From the IMG/VR virus record IMGVR_UViG_3300032240_000553, positions 1 through 35,633 of that record: a DNA stretch of 35,633 bases; one strand, given 5' to 3'. Within the stretch, counting starts at the first letter, position 1. The number at the start of each line of letters is the position of its first letter. Both the position numbers and the translations under genes were made by a program. Below, piece after piece: positions 31,168-31,560 of this stretch. The notes under the pieces are model-generated. The model made no database searches and was not told the DNA's origin. It saw only the letters and a program-made list of their open reading frames with translations. This DNA is from a virus.

Positions 31168-31171
31168 TTCA

Positions 31172-31560
31172 GGATTAGCTCGCACCGGCTCAGCTCGGGT
31201 GCCTAGTGACAACCGGATAATAACGGGGACGGAAGTCTTGCCGCTGAAGCAAGCACTCATCTACTATCCTTAACAGGACGAAGATCGCAAAACGCTTGCG
31301 GTTTAGATGTTTGAAAGTAAAGAATAAGCAAAATGAAGGGATAGTATGCCCTACGTTTATGTATATGTTAGCGTATATACATAAGCCGCCGCTGGATAAA
31401 GACGCAACTCGAGGTACAGGCCAACCGCCTCTGTAATGTTGTAACGCTAGGTGATACATGTTCGACTCAGATAATGTTATTTCACTTTGCCCGCCAGGGC
31501 AAAGTGTGACTGAACGATCTAGATAATACTTAAACTACTCCGTAGTTAAAAATGCTTCGA
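31172..31560 (+). ncRNA. Candidate structured non-coding RNA, family not recognised
   Basis: A gene-free stretch, visibly more GC-rich than its surroundings and packed with helices: 31182-31186/31198-31202; 31237-31241/31249-31253; a long-range 10-bp helix 31262-31271/31337-31346; inside it 31284-31290/31296-31302 (7 bp); 31355-31367/31374-31386 (13 bp including G-U, 6-base loop); 31415-31419/31431-31435; and 31483-31492/31497-31506 (10 bp, GCCA loop). Several helices are extended by G-U pairs (31270-31338, 31285-31301, 31367-31374, 31356-31385) that work only if the plus strand is the RNA. A perfect TATAAT at 31114-31119, without a good -35, is a possible start. I found no match to tmRNA, RNase P, tRNA, or group I/II intron cores. 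Confidence 0.45.

Follow-up and report, generated by a model that had tools for sequence, protein, structure and literature searches.

Phages carry large noncoding RNAs with many pseudoknots, such as GOLLD and ROOL, and these two families, together with OLE, are included in Rfam 15. Another Rfam entry, cow-rumen-2 (RF02947), probably stems from a 2017 paper. Polynucleobacter-1 (RF01718) was introduced in 2010 (PMC2864571); that paper calls it "probably" an RNA and "probably" cis-regulatory, Table 1 marks it "y" for cis-regulation and "?" for switch, and its taxa are given as Burkholderiales and fresh water/estuary. No paper under the name "Polynucleobacter-1 RNA" was found in the open-licence literature, and among the matches listed there RF01718 occurs in PMC2864571 only. 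According to a cryo-EM paper, one ROOL measures 659 nt and many GOLLD RNAs exceed 800 nt.

We analyzed the 35,633-base virus record IMGVR_UViG_3300032240_000553 over its whole length, hereafter called the window. The original prediction was that a gene-free stretch at 31168-31560 encodes a structured RNA outside any known class. Our results showed that this stretch indeed encodes a folded RNA of about 430 nt, common to many related aquatic phages. According to conservation in 86 and 143 distinct relatives and to covariation along its full length, the RNA occupies 31170-31596 on the plus strand (about 427 nt), slightly more than claimed. A cmscan of the window returned RF01718 as the only Rfam family reaching its gathering score, at 31177-31312 on the plus strand (91.3 bits, gathering score 37), which forms the core of the 5' domain. 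In this part, sequence and secondary structure are those of Polynucleobacter-1. However, the 141 positions of the RF01718 model represent the first third of the RNA only; the RNA of the window is about three times as long, contains four pseudoknots and, instead of being placed as a leader, ends the gp46 operon of T4-like phages. The claim of an undescribed RNA therefore fails for the 5' third and holds for the remaining two thirds, which the RF01718 model does not cover. A resemblance to RF02947 was seen at 31355-31453 at a permissive cmscan threshold, with 27.7 bits (E 0.0086) against a gathering score of 66, too low for membership in cow-rumen-2.

As predicted, no credible gene lies in this stretch. 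Its sole long ORF (31190-31459, minus strand, 89 aa) is not conserved, being open in just 4 of 143 relatives, and we therefore regard the RNA as non-coding. ARAGORN detected no tRNA or tmRNA gene in the window. The GC content of 31171-31597 (44.7%) is above that of the 1 kb upstream (37.5%) and of the window (38.2%), but hardly above that of the 1 kb downstream (43.1%), so the expected GC enrichment over the flanks is confirmed on the upstream side only.

Relatives were collected with sequence patterns and profiles. A pattern drawn from the most conserved part of RF01718 was present in at least 119 viral-contig stretches and one drawn from the middle domain in at least 120. A pattern search recovers only RNAs with the letters it demands, so the RNA is more widespread than these counts show; at positions not covered by a pattern, the observed conservation is not circular. 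A full-length profile detected the RNA in 226 records, including the window and the window's own copy (L120). Among these, 184 were full-length, and 143 were kept after dropping rows with 95% identity or more (mean pairwise identity 0.59). Of 21 records with RF01718, 20 have a single copy and one has two; one of the 21 (G018) was counted only below the cut-off. Among 50,697 records of cultured phages, blastn with the window and with a second locus (L075) detected no copy of the RNA. Four stretches from genome contigs also carry it, on MAG contigs whose titles name Methylococcaceae in three cases and Bacteroidetes in one.

Protein families assign the region to a T4-like phage. PHROGs matches identify the late sigma factor gp55 (26704-27633), an SbcD/gp47-like gene (27681-28694) and an SbcC/gp46-like gene (28694-30475), the T4 gene names being our interpretation of the PHROGs descriptions. 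One ORF without a PHROGs match separates the gp46-like gene from a SegE-type GIY-YIG endonuclease gene (30697-31167, plus strand; PF19835 (SegE_GIY-YIG), 112.4 bits, cut-off 25). The latter is the upstream neighbour of the RNA and lies outside it: the RNA, which follows the gp55-gp47-gp46 operon at its 3' end, starts 3 nt past the stop codon of this gene. The next gene 3' of the RNA is on the same strand and has its own TATAAATA at 31601-31608 (plus strand), a T4-type late promoter box by its consensus. A T4-type baseplate protein (PF12322) is encoded about 1.2 kb past the RNA, on the opposite strand (32798-33688). Elsewhere in the window, a minus-strand ORF of 4619 aa runs in a single frame from 2273 to 16132.

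This arrangement recurs in the relatives. Of 14 long contigs, 13 contain a detectable gp46, and in 13/13 the RNA follows it on the same strand; the remaining contig, in which gp46 was not seen, has the RNA at its end. The GIY-YIG gene is the upstream neighbour in 180/201 loci, with a median gap of 2 nt. In one contig (G013) the RNA is present and no GIY-YIG gene is detectable, and in another (G003) 1.8 kb separates the two. These two cases and the constant linkage with gp46 indicate that the RNA is tied to the genomic place and not to the endonuclease.

No sigma-70-like site was found in 30900-31750, and no conserved promoter was seen directly upstream of the RNA in the main group of relatives. 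The word AGGCAA occurs within 25 nt upstream of the RNA in 65/167 loci and in two farther stretches in 4/167 and 25/167, the last of these counts weakening the signal. A divergent member (L256) has TTGACA-17-TATAAT upstream of the RNA; in this locus a tRNA with a CUA anticodon (12170-12246) lies directly upstream of the divergent copy, with the TTGACA-17-TATAAT in between. Another locus (L394) has repeated CTCAGGCAC-type words ahead of the RNA.

Single-sequence folding did not indicate a stability beyond chance (z = -1.47 on the plus and -1.59 on the minus strand), and on each strand 7 of 100 shuffles were at least as stable as the real sequence. Covariation among homologues, the check that could have spoken against an RNA, came out in its favour and strongly supports the predicted structured RNA on the plus strand. 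We compared 143 rows and 436 columns with a tree-based null of 30 sets that preserve the tree, the gaps and how often each column changed. Twenty-four column pairs exceed all 30 null sets; 19 of them form standard pairs in 85-100% of rows, 10 of these 19 lying wholly outside the Rfam match. Each of the three domains also scores above its shuffles. For the middle domain, 79 matches were aligned to a model (R1) built from the window and its relatives only: 29 pairs in 5 helices have 97.5% of cells paired and double changes in 26/29 pairs, with a covariation score of 0.674 against 0.222 in 500 shuffles, none of which reached 0.674. Two pseudoknots of this domain were not part of the R1 model that made the alignment. 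The 5' domain (59 rows, 36 pairs) is 94.8% paired, with double changes in 24/36 pairs and a score of 0.360 against 0.153. For the 3' domain (58 rows, 22 pairs) the values are 80.5%, 14/22 and 0.280 against 0.119; its "further pair types" measure is not above the shuffles (470/500 as high) and its helix P13 is poorly aligned (50.9% paired).

By covariation, the RNA is composed of three domains and contains four pseudoknots; all helices below are on the plus strand. The first pseudoknot, Pa, joins the 5' end (CRG, 31170-31172) to 31244-31246, in the GCYG of the hairpin loop that follows. Its middle pair is A-U in 27/59 rows and G-C in 25/59, and the pair 31171/31245 is above the tree-based null. 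The second is an H-type pseudoknot, in which P1a (31177-31179/31188-31190; 95.5% paired, double changes 2/3) is interleaved with P1 (31182-31186/31198-31202; 100% paired, double changes 5/5). Both are missing from the Rfam structure line because the first pairs outside the model or the helices are interleaved. The loop engaged in Pa belongs to hairpin P3 (31235-31254), which is 98.3% paired over its 3 best-aligned pairs and has two pairs above the null (31235/31254 and 31240/31250). P4 (31258-31263/31304-31309; 100% paired, double changes in 4/5 pairs) encloses P5 (CC 31268-31269/GG 31276-31277) and P6b (31283-31288/31298-31303; 99.7% paired). The columns flanking P5, 31267 and 31279, covary with 1% standard pairs: they hold U with C in most relatives and C with U in others, possibly a non-canonical pair. 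A long-range helix proposed at 31262-31271/31337-31346, which overlaps P4 on part of its 5' strand, was rejected and replaced by P4: it is paired in 561/1319 cells (42.5%), against 708/715 (99.0%) for 31259-31263/31304-31308.

The middle domain contains hairpin P6 (31356-31385, loop UUAGCG at 31368-31373; double changes in 11/11 pairs). The 13-bp stem proposed at 31355-31386 was thus right, with 11 bp at 31356-31366/31375-31385 (95.2% paired). The third pseudoknot pairs UAGCG of the P6 loop (31369-31373) with CGCUA at 31445-31449 (98.2% paired, double changes 5/5), and the fourth, P7, pairs 31391-31395 with 31421-31425 in the P9 loop (98.5% paired, double changes 3/5; one C.A mismatch in the window itself). 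P8 (31405-31408/31438-31441) surrounds P9 (31411-31414/31428-31431), with 99.0% and 100% of cells paired, respectively. In the 3' domain, hairpin P10 (31485-31504; 98.7% paired) represents the inner 8 bp of a 10-bp stem proposed at 31483-31506, whose outer two pairs are poorly conserved. The RNA ends with hairpin P14 (31576-31583/31588-31595), in which 8/8 pairs have double changes and 81.9% of cells are paired, the alignment being rough here. A search for terminator-like sites on the plus strand gave none at P14.

The 3' domain contains two direct repeats on the plus strand, ACUC-RGAURAN-G at 31465-31476 and AUCU-RGAURAN-A at 31517-31528, which match each other letter for letter at the variable positions with few exceptions. 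Parsing by pattern succeeded for 129/143 rows, and the other 14 were excluded. At the first variable position 62 rows are A/A, 67 G/G and none mixed; at the second, 59 are A/A, 70 G/G and none mixed; at the third, 127 are matched and 2 mixed. The tree requires at least 27, 8 and 14 changes at the three positions, and joint changes number 27, 8 and 15. In two of the 58 aligned rows, the usually fixed G of the core is changed to A in both copies. Divergent cores are also each present twice: AGTTGAA in three loci (L288, L209, L256), ACATGAA in L279 and AGTGAAT in L394.

Pairing of the repeats with each other (UCRGAU/AUCURG) was considered and rejected: the best helix needs an A/G mix, and the divergent cores break it. 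Since the mixed A/G combination never occurs, the constraint is one of identity and not of pairing. The repeats may alternatively evolve in concert through gene conversion, but immediately ahead of the matched core one copy has CUC and the other UCU in 58/58 aligned rows, and a constant difference so close to the core argues against it. Inside the RNA, no third segment covaries with the first variable position: the runner-up scores 18, against 194. Complements of the repeat core are not enriched in 1.36 Mb of flanks from 169 loci, nor in 13 of the 14 long contigs (G005 has no parsed repeat). The sense-strand 7-mer is slightly raised (98 vs 78.1, 19/500 shuffles), as is one 8-letter word on both strands (20 vs 14.2, 12/500 shuffles); we take both as noise among 18 tests.

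The reading that we favour, with a probability of about 0.6, is that of a trans-acting noncoding RNA of about 430 nt, with three domains, which is encoded on the plus strand, closes the gp55-gp47-gp46 operon and would dock through two sites of its 3' domain. From the operon transcript, at whose 3' end it lies, it would probably be released to act as a stable folded molecule. Its working end would be the 3' domain, where a hairpin is flanked by the two matched 7-nt cores. These cores could dock identically to a single partner, different from phage to phage, which might be a dimeric protein or a nucleic acid that is not part of the RNA. The matched repeats constitute a sequence-free identity constraint and offer a concrete way towards the partner of such a large RNA. 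With the present results, an Rfam entry that was short and had attracted little attention is extended to a large phage RNA of deep conservation and defined structure.

The main rival is that the stretch belongs to the 3'-UTR of the gp46 operon and serves to terminate, protect or process its mRNA. The strand shared with gp46 in all contigs where it was detected, the close abutment on the last gene in the 180 GIY-YIG loci, the conserved hairpin at the RNA end and the convergent genes that come next in about half of the loci are all consistent with such an element. We nevertheless judge it unlikely. Four pseudoknots and near-invariant loops over 430 nt would exceed the needs of a stability hairpin, the last hairpin has no terminator-like site, and RF02947-type relatives are present in 1 to 4 copies in jumbo-phage contigs, some of them beside structural genes.

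An RNA-only assembly resembling GOLLD or ROOL appears rather improbable to us. The RNA is likewise phage-borne, large, non-coding and rich in pseudoknots, its repeats could serve as contacts between subunits, and the cryo-EM paper does not decide whether large RNAs commonly form cages. However, the RNA of the window is shorter, and the Rfam models of GOLLD, ROOL and OLE gave no match, whether over the window with gathering scores as the threshold or over 30700-31700 with E values allowed up to 5. Neither does the RNA contain a covarying complement of the repeats, and tRNAs are near it, in the examined stretch, in only 3/60 sources.

That the RNA is a leader or riboswitch controlling the downstream gene, as suggested in 2010, is in our opinion improbable. 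The entries in Table 1 of PMC2864571 and the same-strand gene that follows in the window would suit a leader, and the relatives speak against this label. The upstream ORF is on the strand of the RNA in 200/201 loci and the downstream ORF on the opposite strand in 93/177 (82/154 within recurrent families), these downstream counts referring to the longest ORF within 500 nt and possibly including spurious ORFs; the RNA therefore does not look like a leader. There is no constant place 5' of one same-strand gene family, since same-strand downstream genes fall into several families. Moreover, a late promoter box stands between RNA and gene in the window, and one is found within the 140-nt stretch at the RNA end in 25/192 loci (0.014 expected per stretch). 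Finally, the frequent GIY-YIG neighbour might suggest that the RNA is part of a SegE-type homing element, which is very improbable given that this gene occurs in 371 phage records, of which 6 examined regions lack such an RNA, and that one contig (G013) keeps the RNA at its place without the gene.

Cow-rumen-2 shows further parallels with the trans-acting RNA proposed here. A pattern from its consensus is carried by 64 stretches, a few apparently by chance, and 45 of them (sufficient flank, duplicates dropped) were aligned. Beyond the Rfam model, the order of parts in this alignment is a GGA-CGAAG element, the UAGC-loop hairpin, GCCGCC, the GUACAGG..GACCG core, a hairpin and direct repeats, the same order as in the RNA of the window. 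The elements from the UAGC-loop hairpin to the direct repeats are shared by the two RNAs, whereas their 5' and 3' parts have diverged. Model R1, searched in 617 kb of RF02947-type stretches up to E 10, gave 33 weak matches in the 64 loci (22.0 to 12.3 bits, E 0.024 to 6); by comparison of coordinates by eye, 33/33 lie at the cow-rumen-2 place on its strand, and 32 have the full model length. RF02947 matched 0/21 RF01718 records, and no sequence was found that scores above threshold in both RF01718-type and RF02947 models. The neighbour gene is shared too. One family accounts for 56/177 downstream ORFs of the RNAs related to the window, and its example (L263) matches the baseplate hub family phrog_150; in RF02947-type loci, one family accounts for 21/61, and its example (L128) matches PF12322 and phrog_150.

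The shared order, the shared T4-type baseplate hub gene and the place of the matches make common descent likely, and the evidence supports, though it does not prove, that RF02947 corresponds to the middle domain of a divergent version of this RNA carried by other large phages. A second orphan family is thereby linked to Polynucleobacter-1. Tentatively, RF01718 and RF02947 may form one superfamily of multi-pseudoknot phage RNAs with two co-varying identical docking arms; as part of the same tentative reading, it might extend from T4-like phages to jumbo-phage contigs, with several copies in the latter. As relatives of both branches adjoin the baseplate hub gene, these RNAs might conceivably aid tail or baseplate assembly.

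RF02947 has several copies per record in 5/8 records. The repeats of RF02947-type RNAs are only partly matched: 19/41 loci were parsed, and at the first variable letter the copies agree in 17 and differ in 2; of these two, one (L130) is by eye a parsing error and the other (L158) is real. At least 3 of the 22 unparsed loci look like chance pattern matches. Upstream of these RNAs, the Bacteroidetes-type consensus TAnnTTTG occurs within 330 nt in 28/43 loci (0.21 expected per stretch) at scattered positions. blastn with one RF02947 locus (L164) against cultured phages gave short matches only, in 65 records, and the matching regions of Lak-B1 and DAC19 contain no such RNA. In four stretches (L264, L271, L385, L393) of one 327-kb jumbo contig, IMGVR_UViG_3300044644_001125, the middle domain carries GCCACCGU; the 3' domain of this third variant is different and perhaps has short matched repeats of its own.
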